64,000 bases of DNA, taken from contig JAHLEZ010000002.1 in assembly GCA_020726505.1 (NCBI GenBank), forward strand, positions 1,426,001 through 1,490,000, written 5' to 3'. Source of the stretch: Leptodontidium sp. MPI-SDFR-AT-0119 (Eukaryota > Ascomycota > Leotiomycetes > Helotiales > Leptodontidiaceae). Under the pieces are notes generated by a model. That model saw only the letters and a list, made by a program, of their open reading frames with translations, did not search any database and was not told the origin of the DNA. Shown here in pieces: positions 4,166 through 25,414 of this stretch (its first letter is position 1; the number at the start of each line of letters is the position of its first letter). The translations under genes and the position numbers were made by a program.

Positions 4166-5692
4166 TTCGAGCGAAGGTACTGGAGGCGGCACAAAAAGAT
4201 TGAAAACTCAACAAAGAGCTGTGCAAAAGACCGTTGAAGAGCGACAGGAATGTGTGAGATCAGAAGAAAGCTTGACCTACACTTCGTTACTTGTACTCGA
4301 TACAATCCTTCGAATTTGATTAACAACCTCGGTGAGGGGGCTTCCAATAATGCGTTCCGCGACTTCGCCTGGAGGCCGTATCCCATTCAGCTAAAGACCT
4401 CCCTATTGAAGTCTGTTCTCCGTCAGTTACGAATGAAGATTTCCAAAAGGTGGAGTTATCCAGGGTTGAGGTTGATCCCCTTGCTGTTTCTAGCTTGTCC
4501 GCCGCAGATGGATCCTAGAAATTATTGAATCAAGCGATCAGGGAAAGGTTCATCAGACAACGCTACAACTAAATAGGAACAGCAAGTCGACTAGTTATGC
4601 GAAGATGCCGGTGAATCGTGACTTCAATGATTCCAGAGCTCGACAAACCAAAGGCATCACGGAGTATGAAGTGGTCTAGATATCGTGACTGCAATTCATT
4701 TTACATTCTCGTCGATCTCTCATCTACTGTCAATTGACATTTCATTCAACTCATCTTTTTTTCAGTTCTGACGAAAATTCAACTTTGAAGCAAGCCGAAC
4801 GGCCTGGCCCGCTGTTCAAATAAGCTTCCACCTGTCAAGTTCCCCTGCCACCATCCATACTCGACACTAATTCCGAAACAATTTGCCCCTCGGAGGGGGA
4901 GAGGCGCGACGCTGACTCGCGGCCTCAAAAAGAAGCCGAGAAGCTTCTTTAGCCTTCCCCCTGATTTCATCCATGCTTCCACGTTGTTATCTGCTCGATG
5001 GCATGCTGATGTCCCGATCTACTGCCCGGGAGGCCAGTATTTGCAAGCTTGACAGGCCTTCATTCTCCAAAAGGCCATTTCTGTTGAGAATTTTGTAAGC
5101 AACCCGAATCTATCATATGCCCCACTTCCAAAGCATAGAACCAGGAACATGGAACGGTTATCTCTCCTTCTCTTTACTGTACGTCTTCAATCCACAATTA
5201 CCCCTTGATAAAAGATCCTTATCCACACTAGTGAGTACACTTGCGAGATTTTATTGCACCCAACTTGAAGGGATTCTATCTCCGAAGACCAGTTGAAGGG
5301 AATTTTCAAGATTGGGAACGCCTTTGTGTCTTCTAGCCTTCTCTGTATCTGCTGTGGACCCTCTAACTACTGCTTCGGGGGGTCCGGATGGCATTCTATG
5401 CCGATTTTGACAAGCCATTCTTCTCGACTTGTGCATAGTGGCGTGCCTGGCTGCATGTTGCACCACTAGGGAGATTTTTCTTTGCCTCCTTTGGGTCAAA
5501 CGTCAATATGCATCGGGGTGGGTCTGGAGACGTATCGAAACCCTTCCTTCGCGGATTTCACGTTTGAAGTGGATAAGGACCTTGGAATCCTTAAAGTTCC
5601 AACAACTCCATCGATCTACTCTTGCGGACCCAGCGCAGCAGAGATCACCCAGACTTGTCCCGTACACTGTATATCAAAACAGCTCATCGGGC
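4166..5692. other. Intergenic region between divergent phospholipase B and rhodopsin-like genes
   Basis: The two flanking genes diverge, so this 1.5 kb holds both promoters. Open frames here show no conserved motif. I see no repeat or RNA gene. Confidence 0.5.
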
Positions 5693-7122
5693 ATGGGATA
5701 TACAACACAGGGCAATGGGCCTGCTCTATTAACTACTTGCATCGTGTGTCTTGTCTTGACTTGGGCTTTTTTCTCTGTGAGAATATACACCCGGGCATTC
5801 CTGACCAAAGTATGGAAGATAGAAGACTGGCTCTTCGTTGCAAGTCAAGTAAGTAGTATTCATAAAGCCCCGATACGGTTCTGGAAAGCTAACAAAACGC
5901 AGGTGAGCTTTACAGTCTATGCATTGGTTTCCTTGCAGTCGACGTTGCACGGAAATGGCCAATTCAATAGGGACATCGATCCCGTCGATATCCCAATTGC
6001 AATGCGTGTAAGCAGATCAACAAACCAACCGCGAAACACTTGATTAACATACAGGCAGTGGTTCTACTGGGGAGAGATCCTCTACATCATTACCGCATTG
6101 CTGATGCGCCTTTCCATTGGATTTTTCATCCTGCGCATCATGACCCAGAGAAACTTCATCTGGACAATTCGAATAACCATGGGCCTGATCACGCTCGCAA
6201 CAGTGATGGACCTGTTCTACACTATCTTCCAATGCAAGCCAATTAGATACTTCTGGCTACAGTTCTCCGGCTTGCCAGGGAGGTGTCTACCCGCTCCACA
6301 AGTACAAGCTATATCGATCGCATACTCAGCTGCTTCCGCCTTTGCCGATATTCTCTTCGGTGTACTGCCAATGTGCGTCCTGTGGAATCTGCAGATGAAT
6401 CGCAAGGCGAAACTTATCGTTGGAGTCCTTCTCTGTGTTGGTATTGTGTAAGTCAACATCCCACTTGCGGGATATCACCGGCTAATCAAATCAGTGCCGG
6501 GCTCACTGTGATTGTTCGTATTAAGTACATTGTTGATGTCTCTCTTACCGAGGACTTCATGTATGCTACAGCGGTAGGACATCTTTTTCACTCATCCCAT
6601 GCAGTCCTTGAAGCTCTTGGCTACCCAAGAGTGCTTGCACCTCCCTTCTGGCTTGAATACACTACGATTCAACACAAGTCATCCTTTTATCTTCACGCTG
6701 ACATTCCAATCTTCCAGAATGTCTCGATATGGGCACTTATCGAGCCCGCCATCGCTATCTGCTGCATGTCCGCCTCCACCTTACGACCACTCTTCAAATC
6801 CTTGCGCGATAAGACCTCCGCACCAAGCGGCTACGGAATCCAACCCACCGGCCCCGGCAACCGGTATTTCAAGAGCGGCTCGAACCCGGTACAGAGCAAG
6901 CAGGACAACAATTTCGGGAGTAGCAGGAACCACAGCGGATATACAAAGCGCATGGATAATAACCAGGAGACGGGCAGTTATGACGATGCCATTGCGCTGC
7001 GGACCTTGGTTGTGGGTGCGGATGGGAGGACGAGTGAGGGCGATGATGATACGAAGGGGATATTGACGAGTACGACGGTGGAGATCTCGAGGTATGATAG
7101 GAGGGGGGATGATAAGGCTTGA
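5693..7122 (+). CDS. Seven-transmembrane fungal rhodopsin-domain protein (Fung_rhodopsin/SAT4-like)
   Basis: Spliced model join(5693..5848, 5903..6007, 6059..6447, 6495..6573, 6718..7122) encodes 377 residues in an unbroken frame; every intron has GT and AG ends. Hydrophobic helices alternate with short loops: TTCIVCLVLTWAFFSVRIYTR, the WFYWGEILYI..LLMRLSIGFFILRI pair, the ISIAYSAASAFADILFGVLP helix and VSIWALIEPAIAICCMSAST followed by LRPLF. This order is typical of the fungal plasma-membrane family that includes PTH11-like proteins. There is no CFEM domain. The C-terminal 100 residues are polar, glycine-rich and probably cytosolic. The ligand and role are unknown. The 144-nt last intron is in frame and stop-free, so retention would add 48 residues between two helices. 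Confidence 0.8.
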
Positions 7123-7530
7123 GATACGAAGCGAAGCGAGCGATGTTTTTATGAATATTGATGATGGACTTTATTTGAACTGTTGATTTTGTATGACATA
7201 GAATACCAGGACAAGGTGTTTGATTTGCTGATGTTGTAGAATGCAAGTAGAAGCTCAAGCGAGACTGCTCAACGCAAAATTGACCTCAACCTCTAGGGAG
7301 GTGCAGATGTTTGATGGTCGTTTCTGGTTCTTCTTTTCTTGCCATTCAATATCTTTAAACCATTCCTTTTAATCCATCATCCGCAATCGGCTCTACTCAT
7401 TTATTCCGTAACAAGACCTCATAATTATCCACGTCCGAGGCACCTGAGCAGTCTCCATCGATACCGTAGTCGTGGTGCAACTCCTGTTTTCCTCCTTTGT
7501 CCACTTAGTTTTAAGATTAACTAGACGCGG
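7123..7530. other. Intergenic spacer before the transposon nest
   Basis: About 0.4 kb separates the rhodopsin-like gene from the transposon boundary. It probably contains that gene's 3' untranslated region. No other feature is seen. Confidence 0.5.
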
Positions 7531-7532
7531 TA

Positions 7533-7622
7533 ATCGTCGGTTCCCACTCCCCACCTCTGGTAGTCGGTGTTTTTAGGATGTCCGATTTTTTAGGATGTCC
7601 GGTTGCCTGAATACCTCAGGAG
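7533..7622 (+). repeat. Left terminal inverted repeat of the outer transposon
   Basis: Matches the reverse complement of 25322-25411 over 90 bp with only a few mismatches. It contains two direct copies of a TTTTTAGGATGTCCG unit 22 bp apart, which could be paired transposase-binding sites. Confidence 0.85.
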
Positions 7623-8211
7623 GGGCCTTGGCTCGCTCCGCTACTAGCGGCCGCGTACTCAACGCGCCCAAATCGCGACTTTTCTAAGTAACTCTTTGAG
7701 CTCTCAACGTGTCAATTACATTGGTTTCGCTTAATAATTTAACCTCCTTTTACTATAAATGCATTTATTAACCCCAGAAGAGAGTGGCCTCGGGATATAG
7801 ATTTTAATGCGTATTTACCTACTTCTCCACCACTACCTTATACGCCTCCTCCACCTTCGTCTCCACCATTTAATCCCTTTGTATTCAGTTCTCCTACGCT
7901 ACTTCCACATCTAAAGCCCTTACCTCCACCGAAAACACCTCCTCCGTCTCCTGCTAAAATCGACGCGGCTAGATTATAATATATAAACCACCCCAGAAGC
8001 TCTACCGCGAAAGCTTGTAAAGTTGTAGGCATAGGGGAACGATATCACCGGAATATACAACGGATTTTGAAGTATAGTTAAGGTCTTAATAAAGGTAGAA
8101 CGACTCTTTTACGTGGCGACGAGTTTAAGGTTATATATCAATATATTAAAAGCCAAGCGTAGGAAGGATTTAAGGCCAATTTGGATATAATTAGCCAAAG
8201 AATACGGATAT
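7623..8211. pseudogene. Decayed left interior of the pogo/Fot1-like transposon
   Basis: This A/T-rich stretch with many stops lies between the inverted repeat and the old copia insertion. One frame retains a proline- and serine-rich run (about 7820-7970) and degraded sequence that should lead into the transposase continued at 23.3 kb. No intact domain can be read. Confidence 0.45.
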
Positions 8212-8486
8212 TGTTGGGATAGCCTTAGCTGAGGGGTATTCTCTTACTCTGACAGCTTCCAAAGATAGTCGTCTCTCCTGGCCGAGATAAAGCTTAGTTT
8301 TATACCTTGCCTCTTAGTTTCGTACGAGTAATACTTATACGAGCTACAGGGTTTAGTACTTAATATATTTAAGGTAGTTTTCCCTTTCGTACGAAAGGGA
8401 CACACGGAATATACTTAATTAAACTTCACTTATTATATTCTTTATTACCCTAATATCAAGTATCGAACCTTGGTTAGATACTAACA
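8212..8486 (+). repeat. 5' LTR of the old copia element
   Basis: Begins TGTTGGGATAG and ends GATACTAACA. It is the reverse complement of the young LTR apart from transition mutations, and retains the CCCTTTCGTACGAAAGGG palindrome. Confidence 0.9.
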
Positions 8487-8687
8487 CTAATCAGTGGTTA
8501 AATAACCACAGAACAGTTAAGTAATACTTTTATACGACGACAATCAGAAAGACAGACCGGAGAGGCAAACTGATCGGACCTTACGTCGGCGACTAATAAA
8601 AGAAGACGATTCGTACGATCTAAGGATTCACGGAACGTAAACACGACTTAACAATTTTTCATTAACTTTTATACAAAGAAGGACACG

Positions 8688-8814
8688 ATGATTCTACTAC
8701 TAGAGGTCACTTACTTATTAAATACGGAAGTATAAGGGGAACCTTTTGACCTTACGAACGACGAGCATTAAACACTTAAGCGAGTCAATAACCACATTAC
8801 CTTAGCTCTCGTAT
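8688..8814 (+). pseudogene. Start of the old copia pol, cut by the younger insertion
   Basis: The ATG at 8688 and following codons align with the reverse complement of 15856 downward in the intact copy. The match stops at 8814, where the younger element begins, and continues at 16402. Confidence 0.8.
8810..8814 (+). other. Target-site duplication CGTAT, left copy
   Basis: CGTAT precedes the young element here and follows it at 16402-16406. Comparison with intact pol at 15728 shows that the target was a TCGTACGA octamer already mutated to TCGTATAA in the old copy. Confidence 0.9.
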
Positions 8815-9089
8815 TGTTGGTATCTAACCAAGGTCCGATACCTGATATCAGGGTGACAAAGAATATAACAAGTGAAGTTTGATCAAGTATATTCCGTGTG
8901 TCCCTTTCGTACGAAAGGGAAAGCTACCTTAAATACATCAAGTACTAAACCCCGTAGCTCGTATAAGCATTACTCGTACGAAACCAGGAGGCAAGGTATG
9001 AAACCAAGCTTCATCTCGGCCAGGAGAGACGACTATCTTTGGAAGCTGTCAGAGTAAGAGAATGCCCCTCAGCTAAGGCTATCCCAACA
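8815..9089 (-). repeat. 3' LTR of the young copia element
   Basis: It appears identical to 16127-16401. It contains an 18-bp palindrome CCCTTTCGTACGAAAGGG and a second TCGTACGA. A 61-codon open frame in each LTR reads antisense to pol and has no recognisable motif. Confidence 0.95.
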
Positions 9090-9092
9090 CTG

Positions 9093-9150
9093 GCAACTCT
9101 TCTTTTGTCAGAAGAAAAACTCTCCTACCTTCCTTCTTTCTCCTCTGTAC
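9093..9150 (-). promoter_or_regulatory. Candidate polypurine tract upstream of the 3' LTR
   Basis: On the minus strand, purine-rich blocks (AGAGGAGAAAGAAGGAAGG and AAAAGAAGAG) lie just before the 3' LTR, where plus-strand DNA synthesis should be primed. Position and composition fit; the exact cleavage point cannot be read. Confidence 0.4.
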
Positions 9151-9714
9151 GAAGTGCGCGCAACCTAGCGCATTATCCCCAGCTCCTCTTCTTCCTTCGT
9201 ACGAAGCACGTGCTCCATGTGACTTCGGCTCGCTATGTTGAATAGTGACCGCTTTGGGAAGGAACGACTTCGTTCCTTCCTCGTACGTCTCTCGCCAGCT
9301 GGCTGCTAGCCTTTTCCACGCACAAAAGAGATTTTCTGAATTCCCTCTTCTCTTCTTCTTCTCTTCTTCTTCAACCAACAGCAACAACAGCAGCAGCAAC
9401 AGTAAGTCCCCTTTCTCTTCTTCGTACAGCTCTCCTCCTCCTCAGATATTCTCTGTACGACCTGAGATAGCCTCGTACGAATCGGCGCCTCTCTTTTCCG
9501 CCTTGCCTGCAAGGTAATCTGATTCGTTGTCGCTGTGTACTAACGAAAGGTCTTCCGTAGGCCACAACACCACCACCACCACCACCACAACCAGGTGAGT
9601 ACTCTCCCTCGTACGAAGTCTACCCCCTCGAGACTAGCTTCGCACAGCTGCTGCAACCTTAGTGAGGTGGTACTAACGCCTGCGTAGCCACACCACACCA
9701 CACCACACCACACA

Positions 9715-10350
9715 ATGTTAGTCTTTTTCTCTTCATACGAGCTGGCCCTTATCCCCAGGATATAGCTTCTCGTACGAACCTCCGGTCCTTTTGTCTAAGA
9801 ACTAACATCGTATAGGGCCCTTGTTCTCTTCAACGCCGTCAATGCCGCGCTGGCTGCTGCCAACGCCAACGCCCATCCCATGCTCATTATCGGCGGGCAG
9901 CAGCTGGGCCCGTTGTGTCATAATGCGTTGCAACAAACAGTCTTGGCCATGCCAGGACGTGATGTCGCCTTCGTACAAGGGCGCATCACACCCCAGCAGC
10001 TTATGACACATCGGCCTTCGTACGTCAATGCCCTCTTGATTCAATCGAGAGGTGTTGTCCGAGCTGTTCCTTGTGCTGAATGTTCCCGGCGTGGCTTAAC
10101 GCCTTTCCCTGACTGTGCTTCGGTTCAAGGTCATTTCGGGGATAGCTGTGGTAACTGCAAGTGGCGAGATCATGCCGCTCGTTATAATCCCCCTCCTGAG
10201 GACTCATCGTCCGAAGACGGAGGTTCAGGAAACGAGAGTGACGAAGTTCAAGTGGTTGCTGTGCGGAGGGCACCACAGGGACTCATTGCTGGACCTGTAC
10301 GAAGGGGCTTGATAGAAGATGGGTCCAGAGATGCTCCGATTGTCTTGTAA
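9715..10350 (+). CDS. Antisense accessory gene of the copia element, cysteine-rich DUF3716-like protein
   Basis: Read opposite to pol. CDS join(9715..9716, 9816..10350) encodes 178 residues. The start ATG is split: AT ends one exon and the G begins the next after a 99-nt intron (GTTAGT..CTAAC..TATAG). Upstream untranslated exons (to about 9401, 9561-9594 and 9688-9716) are joined by introns 9402-9560 and 9595-9687, each with a GTAAGT or GTGAGT donor and a TACTAAC branch site. The protein has C-X2-C-X10-C-X10-C-X2-C (CAEC..CGNC, residues about 90-120), like DUF3716, probably binding zinc, then an acidic serine-rich stretch. The role is unknown; a DNA- or RNA-binding accessory factor is inferred. 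The old copy holds an equal-length decayed version at 21785-22319. Confidence 0.65.
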
Positions 10351-10720
10351 CTTCGTACGTATCTTTTGTGTTCCCTTTTGTTTGCAAGCACAATTCCTTC
10401 TCACAGCCAAGCTTCTGGGCATCGTACGGAGGCTCCCTTCAAGTGAATGGACTCAAGCTCATCTTCAACCTTTGCGCGGTGCTTGGGATAAGTACTTCGT
10501 ACAGGAGCCTGTACGAAGGAAACCAATGGAGATTTCCCTTAATCGATTCGTTGTTGGATTATCGTTGGACAGTTGGTCGTTAGGTAGTCGATCGTCGTAT
10601 TAGATATTATTTGTTTGGTCGAGAAATGCATAACCATCGTTTCGTACGGTATTCAAATGAGTGACTGAAATGAAATGAAAAACACGCATTTGACAAATGA
10701 AATCATCGTATCGTACGATG

Positions 10721-13700
10721 TTATTCCTCCCCTGGCTCTACTTTCTTTTCCCTCTTAACCCATCCTTCTACTCGTACTACAATCTGATTATTATCAATCA
10801 GCTTTTCCAAGCTTTTGTTCGGGTTTGACTTCGTCATCGCATCCGCCGGGTTGTCTTGACCATTGATCCATCGGATTTCTGCAAGTTCTCGTCGTTCGTA
10901 CGATTGACGCAAAGCCATGATATCGATCATTAGCCGCTTCTCTTTCGTAGTGCCAAGCTTCACGAGGCATTCGTACAGCGAGAACGAGTCTGTACAAACA
11001 ACGATTGGGATCGCTGGTATCTCAAGCCGCGACGTGATAATATCGATCGTACTCTTCACCGCGATTGCCATATCAACCCCGTTAACCATACCGTAAATCT
11101 CGGAAGCTAAGACACTTCGTGTTACTCGTTTGCTCTTCGTACTACTCCAATGAAATAGATTTCCAGAAAGAAGAAACGAGTCTTGATCGTTCGAATCGGG
11201 GTCGTCGTCCTCCGTGCCGAGAATCATTACGTATCCAAGCTGGGAACTTAAGTCCTTGTTATTCGCAAAGGATCCGTCGACAAAAACAAATAACTTCGTA
11301 CGATGTAAGTCCAAAGGAATATAGTTTAATCCTCGTCCGATGTTTTGAATCTGCCACTGAATGCGCTTATTCAAGTTCTTTACGTCGGTATCCTCTGGTT
11401 CTTGGAATTGAGCCGCAACTGATAGGTCGTACGAAGCTTCAGGTTGGCATAAAGTTGCGATATATGCCCCTCGAGCCCGTTGTTCCCGATACTGGTTCGT
11501 ACGGTCCGGTGCTCTTAAGTCAACTTCAGCTAACTTCTCGCCTTGCCCTTTCTGAAGGATTTGGACGAAGTCCTTTCGATCATGCACGATACATCCGTTG
11601 AACGCGAGGGGTGATTCGTACGATAAACGATCCTTCGGTTTTGCAGAGAAACCGGCAATCCCGAGTTCTTTCTCCTCCTTCTCTTGGAACTCGTTAGTAG
11701 CCAAGATCAGGGTATCGTCCGTTTGCATTCCAACTACTCCAAACGGCATTCCTGGTTGAGTAATCAGAAGGCATGGATCGTACGAAGACGTTTCCATATG
11801 CAACTTGACCTTATGATGTGTGTCGTACGTCCCCCACCAGTGTGTTCCTGATTCCGGGATACCGTATAATGGCTTTCGTACGAGCATGATTGTATCCGGC
11901 GAGTAGTTGCTGGCAATTTGCTTTGGCAGTCTCGCATAGATCGTACGATTCAGAAAAGTTGTCGACTGGACATACGCCTGAGTAATATCCCGAATAAAGA
12001 TCGATAACCCTTTTCGTACGAGTGACGGATAGAGTGCCAGAATTAGTCGCTGACTGATCCGTTGAATCGTCGGAGACTGAGTGAGGATCTGTTCCTTTCC
12101 CGCGTCATTATACGCTTGGATCACGAGTCTGGATTTCTCGTACGGAGCTTCAGTTGTCTTCCCTTTGATTTCATTAACAAGCCGGGAATTAAAGATCCGT
12201 CCGCGATGTTGCCTTGGGTCGTATCGTACGAACTCAAATACGCCTCGAGCAATCAAGCTATCAATCTCCTTTTGTTGAGATTCTTCAAATGGAAGACCAG
12301 GGCTGGTGATCTTCCCTGCTGCTCGCATCGTACGAGATAGGTCTAAGTCGGATTGTTCTTTCCGAGTCAGGAAAACTTCTGGTGATCGTACAAGTCCCTT
12401 CTCGAGTTCCTGCTTTGTCTTAAACGGAATCAAGACAACTGGCCGTACTGAAGGAGACACCTGGTCTGATCGTACACGGTCCTCCGGGGCCTCGGCGATT
12501 TCTTCCGTGTAAAACGGCTTAACCACCGTCGTACGAAAGGAAGTCGGTCCTGAAGGCAATTGAACAACACACTCTTTCCCCGTGACCGATAATAACGAAA
12601 ACGGGCCTGTCCATCCCTTTTTCTCCCGCCATACTTTCACTGAAGATTGTAATGGAAGTCGTACGGTCTCGGTAATATCAGGGCCGTTCCTTATACTCTG
12701 AGCATCTTTGATCTTTCGTACGGCTTGAATCTTTCGCAATTCCGTCATTGCTATCCGAACTGCCCTTGCTCTAGTAAGCATATCCGCAGATGGTGGGTCT
12801 TCGTACGAAAGTCTAGGATATGCTCCGAAAACTAGAAGTGTTGGAATCAGTCCGTTTGGACCAGCCGTATCGTTCACGGCTTTCACGGCCATTTGAAGGA
12901 CTACTTCTTTTGCCAGGTTTTCGCTTCTCGTCTCGTCCCAGATGATCTCGTACGATCGGCGTAAAGGGGCGTGATACCGCTCAACCTTCCCGACACTCTG
13001 ATGTGCCTCGACTGGGACTTCCTTTACATCGACGTTCATCGTACGAGCATTTGCTCTGAATTCTGATGATGCGAAGTTCGTCCCGGCATCGTGTACGAAG
13101 TAATCCGGGGGTCCAAGGTAAGTATCGATCCAACACGTACGAAGCGTAATCCACGTTGTCTTCGCTGAATTATCCTTTAGGAATCGAGCGGCATTAAAGC
13201 CGGTTGCCTCGTCAACTGCTTGAAGGACTGCTGCTCCTGAAAGATATAAAATATCCACGATTACAGAGAAATTGAATTCGATATCGTCTTTTAAAGAGAA
13301 TCTGAATCGACCTGGGTTCTTCGTATGAAGCTGACACTGTTCGCAGAACTTTGAGATCTTCTCAATCGTACGAAGGTTTGTTTCCTCGTGTCCTGCTCGC
13401 TGAAGAACGCGGTACAGTTTCTCAACTGAAGGATGTCCAAAGCGTCGATGGAGTTGCCTAAGCTCTGTTTCCGTGAAGTGCTGGTACATGAACGTGTCTT
13501 TCATCGTATGAATCATCATCCATGGATGTCCCCATTTTCGTACGATCGGAATTCTCTTATCCCCTTGAATCATAATATTCTGAAGGTTGTCTAATCGTAC
13601 ACCGAGGGAGTCCATATCTTGAATACATAACAGGAACGGGGTATTTGTCGGAACAATCCAGAACCTCACTTGCCCGATGGGTGTTCGTACGAGTATCGAT

Positions 13701-15856
13701 CCCTCTGATTCTGCTACTCCTTTGCCAAATCGAATCGTATGCGTTTGGCTGCTCGTACGATCAACTTCTAGCGACGGGTCAAGCTTCAGAAGTGCTTGGA
13801 CTTGTTGCTTTCCTGCGGTAGAGATTCCGGCAGCACCGCTGTCTGGCATAATCCCTTGGAAGACTTCGGACGAATATCTGTCTCCAATGACGAATACCTC
13901 GCCTTCGTACGAATGCTTCGTCGGGTCTCGTTGCAAAAAGGCGTGTTTTGTCGATTCGTCGTTTAGAACTTGGATCATTTGTCGTCCGTCGACTTCCCCG
14001 TACTCCGTAAAGAATCCTTCTGGCTCATCTTCGTCCTTCCATTCCTCTGTATCCTCTGGCACTTCTTTTATTGTCGTACAATCAAATTCCCTTGGGAAAT
14101 CTTCGTACGAGCTTAAGAAAGCCTGAGTTGCTTCCTCGGATCCATTGAACTCGGTCATTAGGTGATTCTTGACCTTCGCCCACGCGGCTTTCTGCTCTGC
14201 CTCCGGATGATCTGTTGACCAGCAACCTTCCTTCTTACAAACAATACATTTCCTATTCGTACGATCATTAGAAGGGTTCCTTGGACGAAAAGTCCTCTTC
14301 TGGAACTGGTTTGGTGCTGTGCGATCCGGAAATCGTCGTGCCTTCCCGTAGAATTGTCTCTCTACTAAGTTGTGATCATGATCGTACGAACGATTCTGTA
14401 GGTAAGTGCCAACCTCCCTCGTTCGTACGGCTGTAGCAATTGCAGACCGTAAGTCTGCGCATAGCCCTTCAAATGTCTGTGCAGGCTTATATAGTGCTAG
14501 ACTACACTCTTCTACTCCACGACATGCGTTTAGCACTTGATCGCGAAGATTATGCTCTGTCTGGTATTCCCTTGATAGGCCGCGTTGCGCCGTACGAAGA
14601 GAATCAAACATAATTTCCAAGCATTCTAACCGAGACTTCTCTGGGTTCTTTGCAATCGTAGAGATTAATGTAGTCTCTCTCCACTCAGACAAGTACTTTT
14701 GCTGATTCTCCTCAGTCTCAAAGTGATTCCGGGTCATACGAATCATTGTAGGGAAATCGTACGAACGTCCTGCAATCTTGTCGTAATAGAAATCCGCTGC
14801 TCGTCCTTTTAGCATAATCGAGAATGCTAGGTGGTACTGGTCACTTGAGATTCCGATCTTCGTACAACAGTCGAAGAAGACCTGGAGACGAATATCTAGG
14901 ATATCGTACTGCTCTCCGCCGTACTTCCGGCTCTCATTGCTATAAACCTTCATTAGGTCCGTTAACAACCGTGAGTTCGGGATGATTGTCCGAGACTCAT
15001 ACGATACGGTCGGTTCCGGCGGAGGAGCTCTCGGGGTCGGTGGATCATCTTCGTACGAATGTTGTCTCAGTGGTCGTTCGACGGTTTCGTAGGCTTGGTC
15101 CCGACTTGGAAGGTTGTTGTCTAAGGCCGGATGTGGCGTAGGACTGAAACGTTCGTACGCTGGGTAGCGTTGTTTGGCTGTTTGACCTCTGTCTGGTGAT
15201 AAAGACTTTGCCAGATTTGCGTACGAAGTCCGGTCAGAACTAACCGTGTTCTCGTTCAAAACGACATGGGGCGGAGGACTCAGATATTGTCCAGACGTTT
15301 GAGGCTGTCGCTGAGTTGTTTGAATTGGCTCTGAGAGTGGGTCCTCTGCCTCTTGAGTTCGTACGATTGGAGAATCTCTGGAATTGTCCGAAATAGCGTG
15401 TCTCGCTGGTGGTTCGCTTTGTACAGTTGAAGTCGGAGTACCTTGCCGGTTTCTGTCTTGCCCTTGGGATTTCCATTGGGCATAAGTCCTTCGATTTTGA
15501 TCTGTCCACTCATGTGGTTCTTCCTCTTCCAAAACATCTGCCAACGTTTGAGCGTACGAGATAGACCCCCTTTGCTCTCGTACCCATACTCCGTGATCAA
15601 GGAGGTATGTACGAAGATCCTTAACAGCTTCCCGGGATCCGATAGCAAAAGTATCTTCCGTCCATCCTTCGAAGCCTTCCTTGAATTCTTCCCAAAGTCC
15701 GTAGTCCCAAAACTCTTTTTGGCGGTATCGTACGAGGGCCAAGGTAATGTGGTTATTGACTCGCTTAAGCGTTTGATGCTCGTCGTTCGCAAGGTCAAAG
15801 GGTTCCCCCCATGCTTCCGTATCCAATGGGTAGGTGACCTCTGGTGGTGGAATCAT
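10721..15856 (-). CDS. Copia gag-pol polyprotein (Gag, protease, integrase, reverse transcriptase, RNase H)
   Basis: A single 1711-codon frame; ATG at 15856 is the first in frame, and the old copy keeps it. Order along the protein: Gag-like region, a cysteine knuckle CIVC...C....H near residue 537, aspartic protease DSGA near 674, integrase HHCC (HRRFGH..CEQC) near 808, with the DDE residues in VIVDILY, VHDAGTN and VGKVERYH, then reverse transcriptase near 1240-1420, and RNase H with DGSF near 1530 and the D of CTDSF. Integrase before reverse transcriptase marks Ty1/copia. Odd points: the reverse transcriptase signature is QTDD instead of YVDD, and the knuckle ends in H rather than C. No stops or frame breaks, so it may be functional. 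Confidence 0.92.
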   Translation of the reverse strand: MIPPPEVTYPLDTEAWGEPFDLANDEHQTLKRVNNHITLALVRYRQKEFWDYGLWEEFKEGFEGWTEDTFAIGSREAVKDLRTYLLDHGVWVREQRGSISYAQTLADVLEEEEPHEWTDQNRRTYAQWKSQGQDRNRQGTPTSTVQSEPPARHAISDNSRDSPIVRTQEAEDPLSEPIQTTQRQPQTSGQYLSPPPHVVLNENTVSSDRTSYANLAKSLSPDRGQTAKQRYPAYERFSPTPHPALDNNLPSRDQAYETVERPLRQHSYEDDPPTPRAPPPEPTVSYESRTIIPNSRLLTDLMKVYSNESRKYGGEQYDILDIRLQVFFDCCTKIGISSDQYHLAFSIMLKGRAADFYYDKIAGRSYDFPTMIRMTRNHFETEENQQKYLSEWRETTLISTIAKNPEKSRLECLEIMFDSLRTAQRGLSREYQTEHNLRDQVLNACRGVEECSLALYKPAQTFEGLCADLRSAIATAVRTREVGTYLQNRSYDHDHNLVERQFYGKARRFPDRTAPNQFQKRTFRPRNPSNDRTNRKCIVCKKEGCWSTDHPEAEQKAAWAKVKNHLMTEFNGSEEATQAFLSSYEDFPREFDCTTIKEVPEDTEEWKDEDEPEGFFTEYGEVDGRQMIQVLNDESTKHAFLQRDPTKHSYEGEVFVIGDRYSSEVFQGIMPDSGAAGISTAGKQQVQALLKLDPSLEVDRTSSQTHTIRFGKGVAESEGSILVRTPIGQVRFWIVPTNTPFLLCIQDMDSLGVRLDNLQNIMIQGDKRIPIVRKWGHPWMMIHTMKDTFMYQHFTETELRQLHRRFGHPSVEKLYRVLQRAGHEETNLRTIEKISKFCEQCQLHTKNPGRFRFSLKDDIEFNFSVIVDILYLSGAAVLQAVDEATGFNAARFLKDNSAKTTWITLRTCWIDTYLGPPDYFVHDAGTNFASSEFRANARTMNVDVKEVPVEAHQSVGKVERYHAPLRRSYEIIWDETRSENLAKEVVLQMAVKAVNDTAGPNGLIPTLLVFGAYPRLSYEDPPSADMLTRARAVRIAMTELRKIQAVRKIKDAQSIRNGPDITETVRLPLQSSVKVWREKKGWTGPFSLLSVTGKECVVQLPSGPTSFRTTVVKPFYTEEIAEAPEDRVRSDQVSPSVRPVVLIPFKTKQELEKGLVRSPEVFLTRKEQSDLDLSRTMRAAGKITSPGLPFEESQQKEIDSLIARGVFEFVRYDPRQHRGRIFNSRLVNEIKGKTTEAPYEKSRLVIQAYNDAGKEQILTQSPTIQRISQRLILALYPSLVRKGLSIFIRDITQAYVQSTTFLNRTIYARLPKQIASNYSPDTIMLVRKPLYGIPESGTHWWGTYDTHHKVKLHMETSSYDPCLLITQPGMPFGVVGMQTDDTLILATNEFQEKEEKELGIAGFSAKPKDRLSYESPLAFNGCIVHDRKDFVQILQKGQGEKLAEVDLRAPDRTNQYREQRARGAYIATLCQPEASYDLSVAAQFQEPEDTDVKNLNKRIQWQIQNIGRGLNYIPLDLHRTKLFVFVDGSFANNKDLSSQLGYVMILGTEDDDPDSNDQDSFLLSGNLFHWSSTKSKRVTRSVLASEIYGMVNGVDMAIAVKSTIDIITSRLEIPAIPIVVCTDSFSLYECLVKLGTTKEKRLMIDIMALRQSYERRELAEIRWINGQDNPADAMTKSNPNKSLEKLIDNNQIVVRVEGWVKREKKVEPGEE

Positions 15857-15935
15857 CGTGTCCTTCTTCGTACGAAGGTTAATGAAAATTGTCAAGTCGT
15901 GTTTGCGTTCCGTGAATCCTCAGATCGTACGAATC

Positions 15936-16075
15936 GTCTTCTTCTGCTAGTCGCCGACGCAGGGTCCGATCAGTTTGCCTCTCCGGTCTGTCTTTTCCGA
16001 TTGTCGTCTTCTTCTGCTAGTCGCCGACGCAGGGTCTGATCAGTTTGCCTCTCCGGTCTGTCTTTCCGATTGTCG
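15936..16075. repeat. Tandem duplication of about 70 bp in the copia leader
   Basis: Two adjacent copies (about 15937-16006 and 16007-16075) of a block starting CTTCTTCTGCTAGTCGCC differ by one substitution and one T. The old element has one copy at the equivalent place (about 8560-8630), so the duplication arose in the young lineage. Confidence 0.85.
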
Positions 16076-16126
16076 TCGTACAAAAGTATTGCCTAACTGT
16101 TCTGTGGTTATTTAACCACTGATCAG

Positions 16127-16401
16127 TGTTGGTATCTAACCAAGGTCCGATACCTGATATCAGGGTGACAAAGAATATAACAAGTGAAGTTTGATCAAGT
16201 ATATTCCGTGTGTCCCTTTCGTACGAAAGGGAAAGCTACCTTAAATACATCAAGTACTAAACCCCGTAGCTCGTATAAGCATTACTCGTACGAAACCAGG
16301 AGGCAAGGTATGAAACCAAGCTTCATCTCGGCCAGGAGAGACGACTATCTTTGGAAGCTGTCAGAGTAAGAGAATGCCCCTCAGCTAAGGCTATCCCAAC
16401 A
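16127..16401 (-). repeat. 5' LTR of the young copia element
   Basis: It appears identical to the 3' LTR and should contain the promoter for genomic RNA on the minus strand. Just inside it (16104-16119) lies GTGGTTATTTAACCAC, a 7-bp inverted repeat with a 2-nt loop, where a primer-binding site is expected; I could not match it to a particular tRNA. Confidence 0.95.
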
Positions 16402-16406
16402 CGTAT
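16402..16406 (+). other. Target-site duplication CGTAT, right copy
   Basis: Pairs with 8810-8814. Sequence continuing from here (AATACCACCAAAAAGAG) resumes the interrupted old pol. Confidence 0.9.
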
Positions 16407-19400
16407 AATACCACCAAAAAGAGTTTTAGGACTACGGACTTTAGGAAGAATTCAAGGAAGGCTTTAAAAGATAGACAGAAGATACATTTGCTATCAGATC
16501 CCAGGAAGTTATTAAAGATCTTTGTATATACCTCCTTAATCACGGAGTATAAGTACGAGAGCAAAGGGGGTCTATCTCGTACGCTCAAACGTTAATAGAT
16601 ATTTTAGAAGAAGAGGAACTATATAAGTGGACAGATCAAAATCGAAGGACTTATACCTAATGGAAATCCTAAAGGTAAGACAGAAACCGGCAAGGTACTC
16701 CGACTTTAACTATACGAAGCGAACTACTAATAAGATACACTATTTTAGACAATTCCAGAGATTCCCTAATCGTACGAACTCAAGAGGTAGAGGACTTACT
16801 CTTAGAGCTAATTTAAACAACTCAGTGACAGCCTCAAACGTCTAAATAATATCTAAGTCCTCCGCCTTATGTCGTTTTAAACGAGAACACAGTTAGTTCT
16901 AACTAGACTTCGTACGTAAACTTAGTAAGGTCTTTATTACTAGACAAAAGTCAAATAACTAAATAACGCTACTTAACGTACGAACGTTTTAGTCTTACGC
17001 CACATCTAGCCTTAAATAATAACCTTCTAAGTCAAGACTAAGCCTACGAAACTATCGAACGACCACTAAGACAACATTCGTACGAAGATAATCCACCGAC
17101 CCCGAGAGCTCCTCCGCCAGAACCGACTATATTATATGAGTCTCGAACAATCATCCCGAACTCACAGTTATTAACGGACCTAATAAAAGTTTATAATAAC
17201 AAGAGCCGGAAGTACGGCGGAGAGTAGTACGATATCCTAGATATTCGTCTCCAAGTCTTCTTCGACTATTATACGAAGATCGGAATCTCAAGTAACTAGT
17301 ACTACTTAGTATTCTCGATTATACTAAAAGGACAAGTAGCGGATTTCTATTACGACAAGATTACAGGACGTTCATACGATTTCCTTATAATAATTCGTAT
17401 AACTCAGAATCACTTTAAGACTAAGGAGAATTAATAAAAGTACTTGTCTAAGTAAAGAGAGACTATATTAATCTCTACGATTACAAAGAACCTAGAGAAG
17501 TCTCAGTTAAAATACTTAGAAGTCATATTTGATTCTCTTCGTATAGCGTAACGCGGCCTATCGAGGGAATATTAAACAGAGTATAATCTTCGCGATTAAG
17601 TGCTAAACGTATGTCGTGGAGTAAAAGAGTATAGTCTAGTACTATATAAGCTTATATAGACATTTAAAGGGCTATATACAGACTTACGATCTACAATTAC
17701 TACAGCCGTACAAACGAGGGAAGTTAGCACTTATCTCTAGAATTGTTCGTATAATTATAATTATAACTTAATAAAGAGATAATTCTACGGGAAGACACGA
17801 CAATTTCCGGATCGCACAGTACTAAACTAGTTCTAGAAGAGGACTTTTCGTCTAAGGAACCCTTTTAATAATTATACGAACAAGAAATATATTATTTATA
17901 AGAAGGAAAGTTACTAGTTAATAAATCATCCAGAGGCAGAGTAAAAAGCCGCGTAAGCGAAAGTCAAGAATCACTTAATAACCGAGTTTAATAGATTTAA
18001 GAAAGCAACTTAAGCTTTCTTAAGCTCGTACGAAAATTTCCTAGGGGAATTTAATTATACGACAATAAAAGAAGTACTAGAGGATACAAAGGAATAGAAG
18101 GACGAAGATGAGCTAGAAGGATTCTTTATAGAGTACAGGGAAGTCGACGGACAACAAATGATTTAAGTTCTAAACGACAAATCGATAAAACACGCCTTTT
18201 TATAACGAGACCTAACGAAGGATTTATACGAAAGCGAGGTATTCGTCATCAGAGACAGATATTCGTCTGAAGTCTTTTAAGGGATTATACTAAACAGCGG
18301 TACTGCCGGAATCTCTACTGTAGGAAAGTAACAAGTCTAAGTACTTTTAAAGCTTAACCCGTCGCTAAAAGTTAATCGTACGAGTAACTAAACACATACG
18401 ATTCGATTTGGCAAAGGAGTAGTAGAATTAGAGGGATTAATACTCATACGAACACTTATCAGGCAAGTAAAGTTCTAGATTATTCCGACAAATACCCTAT
18501 TCTTATTATATATTTAAGATATAGACTCCCTTAGTATACGATTAGACAACCTTTAGAATATTATAATTTAAGGGGATAAGAGAATTCCGATCGTACGAAA
18601 ATAAGGACATTTATAGATAATAATTTATATAATAAAAGACACGTTTATATACTAGTACTTCACGGAAATAGAGCTTAAGTAACTCTATCGACACTTTAAA
18701 TATCCTTTAATTAAGAAACTATACTACGTTCTTTAGCGAGTAAAACACAAGGAAATAAACCTTCGTATAATTAAGAAGATCTCAAAGTTCTGCGAATAGT
18801 GTCAGCTTTATACGAAAAACCCAAGTCGATTTAAATTCTCTTTAAGAGACAATATCGAATTCAATTTCTCTATAATCGTAGATATCTTATATCTTTTAGG
18901 AGTAGTAGTCCTTTAAGTAATTAATAAGGCAACCGGCTTTAATGCCGCTCGATTCCTAAAAGATAATTCAGCGAAAATAACGTGGATTACACTTCGTACG
19001 TATTAGATTAATACTTACCTTAGACCCCTAGATTACTTCGTACACGATACCGGGACGAACTTCGCATTATTAGAATTCAGAGCAAATACTCGTATAATAA
19101 ACGTTAATGTAAAGGAAGTCTTAGTCGAGGCACATTAAAGTATCGGGAAGGTTAAGCAGTATTACGCCCCTTTACGCCGATCGTACGAGATTATCTAAGA
19201 CGAGACGAGAAGCGAAAACCTAATAAAAGAAGTAGTCCTTCAAATGGCTATAAAAGCCATAAATAATATAACTAGTCTAAACGGACTAATTCTAACACTT
19301 CTCGTTTTCGGAGCATATCTTAGACTTTCGTACGAAGACCTACTATCTACGGATATACTTATTAAAGTAAGGGCAGTTTAGATAGTAATAACGGAATTAC

Positions 19401-21415
19401 GAAAGATTTAAGCCACACGAAAGATCAAAGATACTTAAAGTATTAAGAACGGCCTTAATATTACTGAGACTATATGACTTCTATTATAATCTTTAGTAAA
19501 AGTATAACGGGAGAAAAAGGGATAGATAGGCTCGTTTTCGTTATTATTAGTCACGGGGAAAGAGTGTATTATTTAATTACCTTTAAGACTGACTTCCTTT
19601 CGTATAACAGTAATTAAGCCGTTTTATATAAAAGAAATCGCCGAGGTCCTAGAGGACCGTGTACGATTAGACTAAGTGTCTCCTTTAGTACGGCTAGTTG
19701 TCTTAATTCCGTTTAAGACAAAGTAGGAACTCAAGAAGGGACTTGTACGATTACTAAAAGTTTTCCTAACTTAGAAAGAGTAATCCGACTTAGACTTATC
19801 TCGTACGATATAAGTAGTAAAGAAGATCACCAGCCTTAGTCTTCTATTTAAAGAATCTTAATAAAAGGAGATTAATAACTTAATTACTTGAGGCGTATTT
19901 AAGTTCGTATAATACGACTTAAGGCAATATCACGGACAGATCTTTAATTCCCGGCTTATTAATAAAATCAAAGGGAAGACAACTAAAGCTCTATACGAGA
20001 AATCCAGACTCGTGATTTAAGTATATAACGACGCAGGAAAGGAACAGATCCTTACTTAGTCTCTGACGATTCAACGAATCAGTCAGTAACTAATTCTAGT
20101 ACTCTATCCGTCACTTATACGAAAAGGGTTATCGATCTTCATTCGGGATATTACTTAGGCGTATGTCTAGTCGATAACGTTTCTAAATCGTACGATTTAT
20201 ACGAGACTATTAAAGTAAATTATTAGTAACTACTCGCCGGATATAATTATACTCGTACGAAAGTTATTATACAGTATCCCGGAATCAGGAATACACTAGT
20301 AGGGGACGTACGATATATATTATAAAGTTAAGTTATATATAAAAACGTCTTTGTACGATTTATGTCTTCTAATTACTTAACTAAGAATGCCGTTTAAAGT
20401 AGTTAAAATATAAATAGACAATACCCTAATCTTAACTACTAACGAGTTCTAAGAGAAGGAGGAGAAAGAACTTAGGATTACCGGTTTCTTTATAAAACCG
20501 AAGGATCGTTTATTATACGAATCACCCCTCGCGTTTAACGGATATATCGTATATAATCGAAAGGACTTCGTCCAAATCCTTTAAAAAGAGTAAGGCGAGA
20601 AGTTAATTAAAGTTAACTTAAGAGTACTAGACTATACGAACTAGTATCGGGAACAACGGGCTTAAGGGGCATATATCACAACTTTATGCCAACCTGAAGC
20701 TTCGTACGACTTATTAGTTACGGCTCAATTCCAAGAACCAAAGGATATTGACGTAAAGAACTTAAATAAGCGCATTCAGTGGCAGATTCAAAACATCAGA
20801 CGAAGATTAAATTATATTCCTTTAGACTTATATTATACGAAGTTATTTGTTTTTATTAACGGATCCTTTGCGAATAATAAAGACTTCAGTTCTTAGCTTA
20901 AATACGTAATAATTCTCGGCACAGAGGACGACGACCCTAATTTATACGATTAAGACTCGTTTCTTCTTTCTAGAAATCTATTTCATTAGAGTAATACGAA
21001 GAGTAAACAAATAACACGAAGTGTCTTAACTTCCGAGATCTATAGTATAATTAATAAGGTTAATATAATAATCGCAGTAAAGAGTACGATTAATATTATT
21101 ACGTCACAGCTTAAGATACTAGCGATCCCAATCGTTATTTATATAGACTCGTTCTCGCTATACGAATGCCTCGTGAAGCTCAGTACTACGAAAGAGAAGC
21201 GGCTAATAATCGATATTATAACTTTACGTTAATTATACGAACGACGAGAACTTATAGAAATCTAATAGATTAATAGTCAAGACAACCTAGTAGATGCGAT
21301 AACAAAGTCAAACCCGAACAAAAGCTTAGAAAAGCTGATTAATAATAATTAAATTATCGTACGAGTAAAAGGATAAGTTAAGAGGGAAAAGAAAGTAGAG
21401 TTAAAGGAGGAATAG
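16407..21415 (+). pseudogene. Remainder of the old copia pol, RIP-decayed
   Basis: Collinear with the reverse complement of the intact pol from 15724 down to its stop at 10721. Codon-by-codon comparison shows TGG to TAG/TAA and CAA/CAG to TAA/TAG conversions throughout, with few length changes. Recognisable remnants include the integrase zinc region near 18790 and the RNase H region near 20830-21300. Many TCGTACGA sites are now TCGTATAA or TATACGA. Confidence 0.9.
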
Positions 21416-21784
21416 TATCGTATAATATAATAATTTCATTTATTAAATACGTGTTTTTATTTTATTTTAGTTACTTATTTAAATACTATACGAAACAATA
21501 GTTATACATTTCTCGACTAAACAAATAATATCTAATACGACAATTGACTACCTAACGACTAACTGTCTAACAATAATCTAATAACGAATCGATTAAGGGA
21601 AATCTCTATTAGTTTCCTTCGTATAGGCTCCTATATGAAGTACTTATCCTAAGTACCGCGCAAAGGTTAAAGATAAGCTTGAGTCCATTTACTTAAAGGG
21701 AGCCTCTATATAATGCCTAGAAGCTTAGTTATAAAAAGGAATTATACTTATAAACAAAAGGGAACACAAAAGATACATACGAAA

Positions 21785-22319
21785 TTACAAGACAATTAAA
21801 GTATCTCTAGACCTATCTTCTATTAAGCCCCTTCGTATAAGTCTAGTAATAAGTCCCTGTAGTGCCCTCCGCATAGTAACTACTTGAACTTCGTCACTCT
21901 CGTTTCCTGAACTTCCGTCTTCGAACAATAAGTCCTTAGGAGGGGGATTATAACGAGCGGCATAATCTCGCTACTTATAGTTACTACAATTATCCCCGAA
22001 ATGACCTTAAACTAAAGCACAGTCAGAGAAAGGCGTTAAGTTACGCCGGGAACATTTAGCACAAGAAATAACTCGGACAACACCTCTCGATTAAATCAAG
22101 AGGGCATTAACGTACGAAGGCCGATGTGTCATAAGCTACTAGAGTGTGATGCGCCCTTATACGAAGGCGACATCACGTCCTGGCATAGCTAAGACTGTTT
22201 ATTATAATATATTATAACACAATAAGCCCAGCTACTACCCGCCAATAATAAGCATAAGATAGGCGTTAGCGTTAGTAGTAGTTAGCGCGGCATTAACGGC
22301 GTTAAAGAGAATAAGGGCC
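21785..22319 (-). pseudogene. Decayed copy of the antisense DUF3716-like gene in the old copia element
   Basis: This 535-nt stretch corresponds base for base in length to the main exon at 9816-10350, in the opposite orientation as expected. The cysteine region and the acidic C-terminal coding part can still be followed, with RIP-type changes and stops. Upstream, degraded CA-rich leader exons are visible near 22425-22450 and 22550-22575. Its presence shows that the antisense gene belongs to the family, not just to one copy. Confidence 0.75.
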
Positions 22320-23049
22320 CTATATAATATTAGTTCTTAGACAAAAGGACCGGAGGTTCGTACAAGAAGCCATATCCTAGGGATAAGGGCTAGCTCGTAT
22401 AAAGAGAAAAGACTAACATTGTGTAGTGTAGTGTGGTGTAGTGTGGTGTGGCTACGTAGGCGTTAGTACCACCTCACTAAGGTTGCAGTAGCTGTGCGAA
22501 GCTAGTCTCGAGGGGGTAGACTTCGTACGAGGGAGAGTACTCACTTAGTTGTGGTAGTAGTAGTAGTAGTATTATGGCCTACGGAAGACCTTTCGTTAGT
22601 ACATAGCGACAACGAATTAGATTACTTTATAGGCAAGGCGGAAAAGAGAGGCGCCGATTCGTATAAGGCTATCTTAAGTCGTATAGAGAATATCTAAGGA
22701 GGAGGAGAGCTATACGAAGAAGAGAAAGGGGACTTACTATTATTACTACTATTATTACTATTAATTAAAGAAAAAGAGAAGAAGAAGAGAAAAGGGAATT
22801 CAGAAAATCTCTTTTATACGTGAGAAAGGCTAGTAATTAGTTAGCGAGAGACGTACGAGAAAGGAACGAAGTTATTCCTTCTTAAAGCGGTCACTATTTA
22901 ATATAGCGAGCCGAAGTCACATAGGGCACGTGCTTTATACGAAGGAAGAAGAGGAGCTAAGGATAATACGCTAAGTTGCGCGCACTTTATATAAAGGAGA
23001 AAGAAGGAAGGTAAGAGAGTTTTTCTTTTAACAAAAGAAGAGTTACTAA

Positions 23050-23324
23050 TATTAAGATAGCCTTAACTAAGGGGTATTCTCTTACTTTAACAGCTTCTAA
23101 AGATAGTCGTCTCTCTTGGCCGAGATAAAGCTTAGTTTTATACCTTGCCTCCTAGTTTCGTACAAGTAATACTTATACGAGCTATAGGGTTTAATACTTA
23201 ATGTATTTAAGGTAGTTTTCCCTTTCGTACGAAAGGGACACACGGAATATACTTAATCAAACTTCACTTGTTGTATTCTTTGTCACCCTAATATTAAGTA
23301 TCGAACCTTAGTTAGATACCAACA
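23050..23324 (+). repeat. 3' LTR of the old copia element
   Basis: 275 bp, same as the other three LTRs, with scattered transitions. Its first bases read TATTAAGATAG where the intact form has TGTTGGGATAG. Confidence 0.9.
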
Positions 23325-23329
23325 AATAT

Positions 23330-25321: not shown

Positions 25322-25411
25322 CTCCTGAGGCATTCAGGCAACCGGACATCCTAAAAAATCGGACATCCTAAAAAAACCGACTACCAGAGGTGGGGAGTGG
25401 GAACCGACGAT
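25322..25411 (-). repeat. Right terminal inverted repeat of the outer transposon
   Basis: Reverse complement of 7533-7622, bounded outside by TA at 25412-25413. It also carries the duplicated AGGATGTCCG unit. Confidence 0.85.
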
Positions 25412-25414
25412 TAC

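Follow-up and report, generated by a model that had tools for sequence, protein, structure and literature searches.

The window analysed here comprises 64,000 nucleotides of the ascomycete Leptodontidium sp. MPI-SDFR-AT-0119 (GenBank assembly GCA_020726505.1, contig JAHLEZ010000002.1, positions 1,426,001 to 1,490,000), in which a young copia retrotransposon, family A, sits within an older, oppositely oriented copy of the same family (Table 1). The element has the features of copia (Ty1) retrotransposons: long terminal repeats (LTRs) with TG...CA ends, a short target-site duplication, and an integrase placed before an RVT_2-type reverse transcriptase. In the pol protein, RVT_2 scores above the Pfam cut-off (residues 1245-1411), and gag_pre-integrs and rve (residues 817-965) score under theirs. 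The two LTRs are identical and 275 bp long, a 276th matching base being due to chance; with them, the limits of 8905..16295 given in the original prediction are corrected to 8815-16401. On the strand opposite to pol lies an antisense gene with a DUF3716 domain, and the whole element is saturated with the palindromic octamer TCGTACGA, whose core is CGTACG. The host genome (77 Mb), from which the family A and B copies compared below were taken, holds 16 near-identical family A copies, 15 of which differ from the window copy by 0-2 bases over the ~3 kb compared. Decayed copies outnumber the young ones, and a search with the antisense protein returned 57 matches, a figure that includes host genes and split matches.

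Over 8905-16295 there are exactly 53 cores and 37 octamers, the very numbers first reported, and one octamer occurs per ~140 letters of the element, protein-coding parts included. Outside the nest we counted 9 cores and one octamer in 48,883 bases, in agreement with the predicted figure of under ten cores. The window as a whole contains 86 cores and 55 octamers, compared to means of 7.8 and 0.7 and largest values of 14 and 3 in dinucleotide shuffles (n = 100). Sites had been said to lie in the LTRs, the leader, the antisense gene including its introns, and pol in three frames, and the counts by region and by frame bear this out: core density is 4.8-7.3 per kb across both LTRs, the leader, the antisense-gene region, and pol, and the 37 cores found from the first Met of pol onwards occupy all three frames (11, 16, and 10), where they encode Arg-Thr, Ser-Tyr-Glu/Asp and similar peptides, or a hydrophobic residue followed by Val-Arg. 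The complete open gag-pol stretch has 38 cores and 27 octamers.

Codon usage does not account for these numbers. Codon-preserving shuffles of pol (n = 3000) gave a mean of 2.7 octamers (maximum 9) and 6.1 cores (maximum 15) versus 26 and 37 observed. The octamer is used at 26 of the 33 places in pol where the peptide permits it, and the core at 37 of 56; of nine further palindromic hexamers only three are used at all, at 3/26 (CGATCG), 3/20 (GTCGAC), and 5/12 (ATCGAT) of the permitted places. The sites are also evenly spaced, with a mean distance of 142 bp, a minimum of 41, and a coefficient of variation of 0.54 compared to 0.97 by chance, a value as low being reached in 0 of 2000 simulations.

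Table 1. Features of the nested family A copies, in window coordinates
Feature	Position	Strand	Remarks
Family A copia element, young	8815..16401	-	ends TGTTGG...CCAACA; pol on minus strand
5' LTR (relative to pol)	16127..16401	-	two octamers TCGTACGA
Leader, 5' LTR to pol	15920..16126	-	one octamer TCGTACGA; 62-bp tandem duplication
gag-pol frame, open	10721..15919	-	first Met 15856; 1732 codons between stops
Antisense gene, main coding exon, DUF3716 (PF12511)	9816..10350	+	start codon split: AT 9715-9716, G 9816
Antisense gene leader	9402..9815	+	three predicted introns: 9402-9560, 9595-9687, 9717-9815
3' LTR (relative to pol)	8815..9089	-	two octamers TCGTACGA
Target-site duplication CGTAT	8810..8814	.	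second copy 16402-16406; inside mutated octamer TCGTATAA of older copy
Older family A copy, left part, mutated by repeat-induced point mutation (RIP)	8209..8814	+	opposite orientation to young element
Older family A copy, right part	16402..23325	+	~34% GC, RIP-mutated

At the DNA level, counts for the family A clade come from copies of this genome only, and conservation in relatives was judged from their pol proteins. This is informative because the octamer confines the encoded peptide to three patterns: SY followed by D or E; F, I, L, or V followed by VR; and any residue followed by RT and then I, K, M, N, R, S, or T. We compared the window pol with the 120 relatives listed of 502 found. Among 256 palindromes, TCGTACGA ranks first in 11 of 14 proteins (the window pol and P0105-P0117); its rank in the remaining three is 2 or 3, and z-scores across the 14 are 4.2-12.1, while the remaining 107 of the 120 listed relatives have no average excess (mean z 0.12, standard deviation 0.97, maximum 4.4). 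When the two best hexamers of each protein were taken from 2080 hexamer classes in 122 pols, the 19 largest outliers were all CGTACG or GTACGA, in the family A group. A tree of 58 rows (the window pol, 54 of the 120 relatives, L031, L034, and L050) places 13 of the 14 positives within one 14-member clade (SH-aLRT 98), with P0113 apart; the fourteenth clade member, P0128 from Coleophoma, is weakly positive, and for each of the 14 members none of 400 residue shuffles attained the observed count. Read from the proteins, octamer saturation is thus conserved in the 13 closest pol relatives among those listed. The alignment of 12 clade members contains 96 columns in which one or more of them has a permissive peptide, and in 53 of these it is found in a single member, indicating that site positions turn over while density persists. 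Two of the proteins found, P0173 and P0206, carry the names of Massilia and Scandinavium metagenome-assembled genomes, probably through contamination.

In 14 old family A copies (82-89% identical), 56 of 167 octamers are still intact, and the older copy surrounding the young element retains 24 cores and 17 octamers. CpG cytosines in the old copies are mutated at 359 of 1060 positions inside CGTACG versus 1031 of 4276 outside, and in matched contexts the mutated fraction inside and outside sites is 0.405 versus 0.335 for TCGT (P 0.02) and 0.273 versus 0.185 for ACGA (P 0.0006). Compared with the young copy, L040, another family A copy, and the older copy of the window have lost 34 octamers between them, every one of which shows C-to-T or G-to-A changes. 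The main target of RIP, CpA, is mutated at 3447 of 5011 positions in old copies, and the octamer contains no CpA. The sites are therefore neither mutational cold spots nor shielded from RIP in dead copies, and loss in old copies at least equal to that of matched CpG contexts rules out both an origin as RIP products or survivors and a shielding of sites from RIP. Since dead copies lose sites at least as fast as matched contexts, living lineages must maintain them. The original prediction held that selection acts on DNA or RNA sequence rather than on peptide, and made this depend on shuffles with the same codon and dinucleotide use giving lower counts and on related copies sharing the enrichment. 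The shuffles fell far short, and the young copies and pol relatives share the enrichment as far as the data allowed. Selection on the array as nucleic acid, not as peptide, is supported because codon-preserving shuffles fail to reproduce it, because non-coding density is close to that of pol, and because dead copies lose their sites.

A second copia family of the same genome, family B, has a reverse transcriptase 57% identical to that of family A (best copies) and no CGTACG excess on count. Its copies are instead saturated with a direct repeat, TTCGG-N6-TTCGG or, in its shorter form, CGG-N8-CGG, with an 11-bp step. CGG-N8-CGG occurs 34, 35, and 27 times in copies L031, L032, and L033, whereas gaps of 7 or 9 give only 1-4 occurrences, and a further harmonic, at gap 19, reflects three consecutive units. 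The dyad CGAA-N6-CCGA ranks top, alone or jointly, in 7 of 8 family B copies examined and second in L036. The same repeat fills L050, a fungal copia relative on a 7.6-kb contig (JAPYPR010000046.1), with 30 occurrences (versus 3 for gap 7 and 8 for gap 9) and a single CGTACG; L050 is filed under an Erythrobacter metagenome-assembled genome, although it is fungal by content and complete-looking, and contamination is likely. Codon shuffles (n = 2000) gave 1.6 occurrences (maximum 8) in an open part of the L031 pol, where 11 are found, and 3.5 (maximum 12) in the L050 pol, where 19 are found. The motif lies on both strands (17 plus and 15 minus in L032, 22 and 8 in L050), and its site clusters are evenly spaced (P 0.004 in L031, 0/3000 in L032, P 0.012 in L050). 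Genome-wide, TTCGG-N6-TTCGG occurs 770 times versus 284 for the reversed control. A third family, C (L034, L039, and L048), is 6.3 kb from LTR to LTR, ~1.2 kb shorter, and contains neither the antisense gene nor a motif; in L051, a copia of another kind whose frame spans 1504 residues, no motif was seen within the 7 kb examined, and family D copies were excluded from the motif counts as too decayed. In a separate 8.9-kb RIP-mutated copia, L037 (C25:197801-207800), a long stretch separates pol from the LTR, and TACG-N8-GTAA (9 versus 0.8) and TACG-N7-CGTA (6 versus 0.4) are mildly in excess; the element could represent a third motif family.

In families A and B and in L050, the antisense gene occupies the interval from pol to the 3' LTR on the opposite strand. 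Each of its three predicted introns in the window copy has GT donor and AG acceptor signals together with a branch-like CTAAC, from which the gene appears to be spliced, and octamers are present within the introns. The family A (type A) protein has 178 residues and matches DUF3716 with 48.5 bits (Pfam cut-off 22), a domain found in type A only. It has 101 homologues at E up to 0.01, including proteins from Botrytis, Histoplasma, Blastomyces, and Aspergillus, and its relatives show the cysteine pattern CX2CX10CX10CX2CX8C, with the six cysteines kept in 71-74 of 73-74 sequences. The type B protein of family B and L050 has no Pfam family match, and its three homologues are all from Leptodophora sp.; its six cysteines form the cluster CX2CX11CX9CX2CX6C, which is accompanied by a basic stretch and an acidic tail. 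Canonical Zn2Cys6 clusters have the spacing CX2CX6CX5-12CX2CX6-8C, and the antisense proteins resemble the Zn2Cys6 factors Upc2/Ecm22 and HAP1 in having six conserved cysteines but differ from them in cysteine spacing. Neither type has a Zn2Cys6 match in Pfam. The structural model of the DUF3716 protein is good over residues 1-125 (mean predicted local distance difference test score 83), that of type B is poor, and a check for the zinc-cluster fold with VIA-align gave no match. A DUF3716 protein, P0001, and an A-type pol, P0105, appear to share a contig, judging by the identical length (5528) of their contigs, which would be the sole other such case. The sixth-cysteine codon of the antisense gene (window 10183-10185) differs among young copies, and two active lineages may therefore differ in their antisense protein.

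Taken together, TCGTACGA is probably the recognition site of a DNA-binding protein, selected as a dense and even array along the whole element. Binding sites in duplex DNA would explain the array best, because the orientation of the sister motif is irrelevant, its step is near one helical turn, and coding and non-coding sequence are treated alike. As possible readers the original prediction had named an integrase, an accessory protein, or a host factor; the accessory protein, in the form of the antisense product, is the best supported of these, while the identity of the reader stays an inference. Motif type follows antisense protein type, and the motif is absent from family C, which lacks the gene, making the antisense protein the most economical reader; we estimate the probability that the element's own DUF3716 protein reads the array at about 0.65. 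HAP1 binds CGG direct repeats. Zinc-cluster sites are mostly CGG triplets of set spacing, those of Upc2/Ecm22 being TCGTA-like, according to the accessible text of PMC3334620. Both motifs would therefore suit proteins of this kind. The antisense product, a small protein with a cysteine cluster reminiscent of the zinc-cluster transcription factors of fungi, would bind the octamers, coat the copies of its own family, and keep them transcribable, and in family B a different cysteine-cluster protein would do so through CGG-N8-CGG, each family recognizing itself. Whether this amounts to a self-recognition code of copia elements in filamentous ascomycetes, in which a family-specific antisense cysteine-cluster protein and a matching site rewritten evenly through the whole body split in specificity as families split, each protein acting for the copies of its own family alone, seems to us evenly balanced. 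As to its effect, we tentatively favor anti-silencing or activation of own-family copies, by analogy with the Arabidopsis protein VANC, whose localization depends on motif density (PMC5735166, available portion).

Several observations weigh against this interpretation. The gene and motif occur together in few lineages, A, B, and L050, both being absent from C, and the integrase likewise differs among A, B, L050, and C and hence co-varies with the motif. P0113, P0212, and P0224, three of the 107 listed relatives that lie outside the clade, also pass the residue-shuffle test. Canonical zinc-cluster spacing fits neither protein type, homology between types A and B could not be demonstrated, and the four Foldseek matches of the DUF3716 model in the PDB, one ribosomal and three HAP1-DNA chains, have E-values of 5.8-8.9, none significant. 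Three young copies, the window copy included, lack the sixth conserved cysteine, which 13 young copies have. The sites of dead copies enjoy no shielding from RIP. Finally, L040 (C8:1796001-1806000, 3000-9151) is a family A copy without the antisense gene that has kept most octamers, as expected after a recent deletion, and gives no proof of dependence of the array on the gene. The L040 deletion junction lies at a stretch resembling CTGTACGAAG, which is found on both sides of the lost segment in the window copy.

The array could alternatively be read by a host transcription factor, for example an Upc2-like sterol regulator, with the element borrowing a host site for its expression. The octamer is present in a 19-bp repeat of the Pseudocercospora fijiensis cyp51 promoter; in the accessible part of that report the tandem repeat is linked to fungicide insensitivity, isolates with six promoter repeats express cyp51 3.3-5.6-fold above one control isolate, and the authors ask about a transposon origin (PMC6637983). 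Yeast Upc2/Ecm22 also bind TCGTATA (PMC3334620, in the portion available). However, a promoter needs few sites and not an even array across pol, the sister family has a different site in the same nucleus, and the octamer is not general in the genome, occurring at 2223 places, of which family A alone supplies several hundred, versus 1186 for the reversed control; we therefore regard a host factor as unlikely. Still less likely is a landing pad, by which the integrase, or else a tether (for example the antisense protein), steers new copies into older arrays, the nests thereby lying away from host genes. Two of the 16 young copies do lie inside older family A copies, the window copy exactly in a mutated octamer and L006 within a few bases of an octamer in an LTR, and families A and B differ in integrase as well as in motif. 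Yet the left flanks of 14 of the 16 have no junction octamer and no family A match over most of their length, leading us to reject insertion into the octamer as a general rule; a landing pad does not require even coverage of pol, and RIP-mutated islands are presumably targeted commonly anyway. The 5-bp duplication is complete in 4 of the 16 young copies, the first three letters being present in the remaining 12, and the young copy L013 is inserted in a family B copy.

The self-complementarity of the octamer would also suit an RNA-level signal, with genomic RNA dimerizing or being packaged through UCGUACGA. This is very improbable: the sister motif is a non-palindromic direct repeat present on both strands, on which ground DNA fits better than RNA and the RNA signal was rejected; in addition, sites occur within the introns of the antisense gene, and the 11-bp step is near one turn of duplex DNA. 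Scarcely any credence can be given to codon, composition, or mutation bias, or to the survival of RIP-spared sequence. Nothing was found in favor of bias, sparing being conceivable for an octamer without CpA, whereas codon-preserving and dinucleotide shuffles never approach the observed counts, which disposes of a codon or composition artefact within the reach of these tests, and sites are lost in dead copies faster than matched contexts and are restricted mainly to one clade.

The closest parallel to reading by an element-encoded protein is the VANC/VANDAL system of Arabidopsis as described in the available text of Hosaka et al. 2017 (PMC5735166): a protein encoded by the element, a dense short motif limited to the encoding family, and related families with different proteins and motifs, all of which have counterparts here. 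VANDALs are, however, DNA transposons, unlike the LTR retrotransposon family A, and their motifs are mainly non-coding and spread by tandem repeats, whereas family A sites fill pol, are even, and turn over at scattered positions. Homology to VANC (DUF1985, DUF287) was not found, DUF3716 being the sole Pfam match of type A and type B having none, and the anti-silencing likeness is one in which both binding and effect are predicted for the fungal elements. Antisense genes between pol and the 3' LTR are also carried by Grande, RIRE2, and Retand of plants and by Boty (with brtn) of Botrytis. In the accessible portions of the two reviews (PMC7264820, PMC11963269), their role is stated as unknown and a whole-element array is not reported; Retand TRP28 is predicted to be DNA-binding, and Retand elements often have tandem repeats in that region. 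Family A differs from these carriers in being a copia and, with its sister family, in having a DUF3716 or type B protein. The FunCo1-27 clades are likewise copia elements of filamentous ascomycetes, and the terms 'antisense' and 'additional ORF' are absent from the available text of that study (PMC5445492). In the literature searched, which mostly excluded subscription journals, DUF3716 is not mentioned by name, PF12511 appears in a single paper and TCGTACGA in 194, and no retrotransposon with such an array is described among the titles.

If the proposed reading is true, sequence-specific self-recognition, known from Arabidopsis VANDALs, would extend to fungal LTR retrotransposons with an unrelated protein, the uncharacterized DUF3716 would gain a likely function, and an explanation would be at hand for antisense genes in LTR elements, which the accessible parts of the reviews (PMC7264820, PMC11963269) describe as being of unknown role. 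Selection on DNA sites is strong enough here to shape the pol protein itself, through Ser-Tyr-Glu, Val-Arg, and Arg-Thr, to the point that protein sequences by themselves reveal the sites, and the presence in one nucleus of sister families that differ in their sites makes the evolution of DNA-binding specificity directly testable.

DUF3716 also occurs in other settings. In L041, L042, and L043 (on C45, C56, and C14) it lies in long open frames with 0-1 CGTACG per 10 kb, outside motif-rich elements, possibly as host genes or domesticated copies. In Blastomyces percursus, one predicted protein (P0077) combines DUF3716 with GCR1_C (PF12550), by its name a domain of the transcription-activator type. 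In the window, a 93-bp inverted repeat (7530-7622 and 25322-25414, 98% complementary, 17.7 kb apart) brackets the entire nest and perhaps represents the termini of another transposon in which the nest grew.
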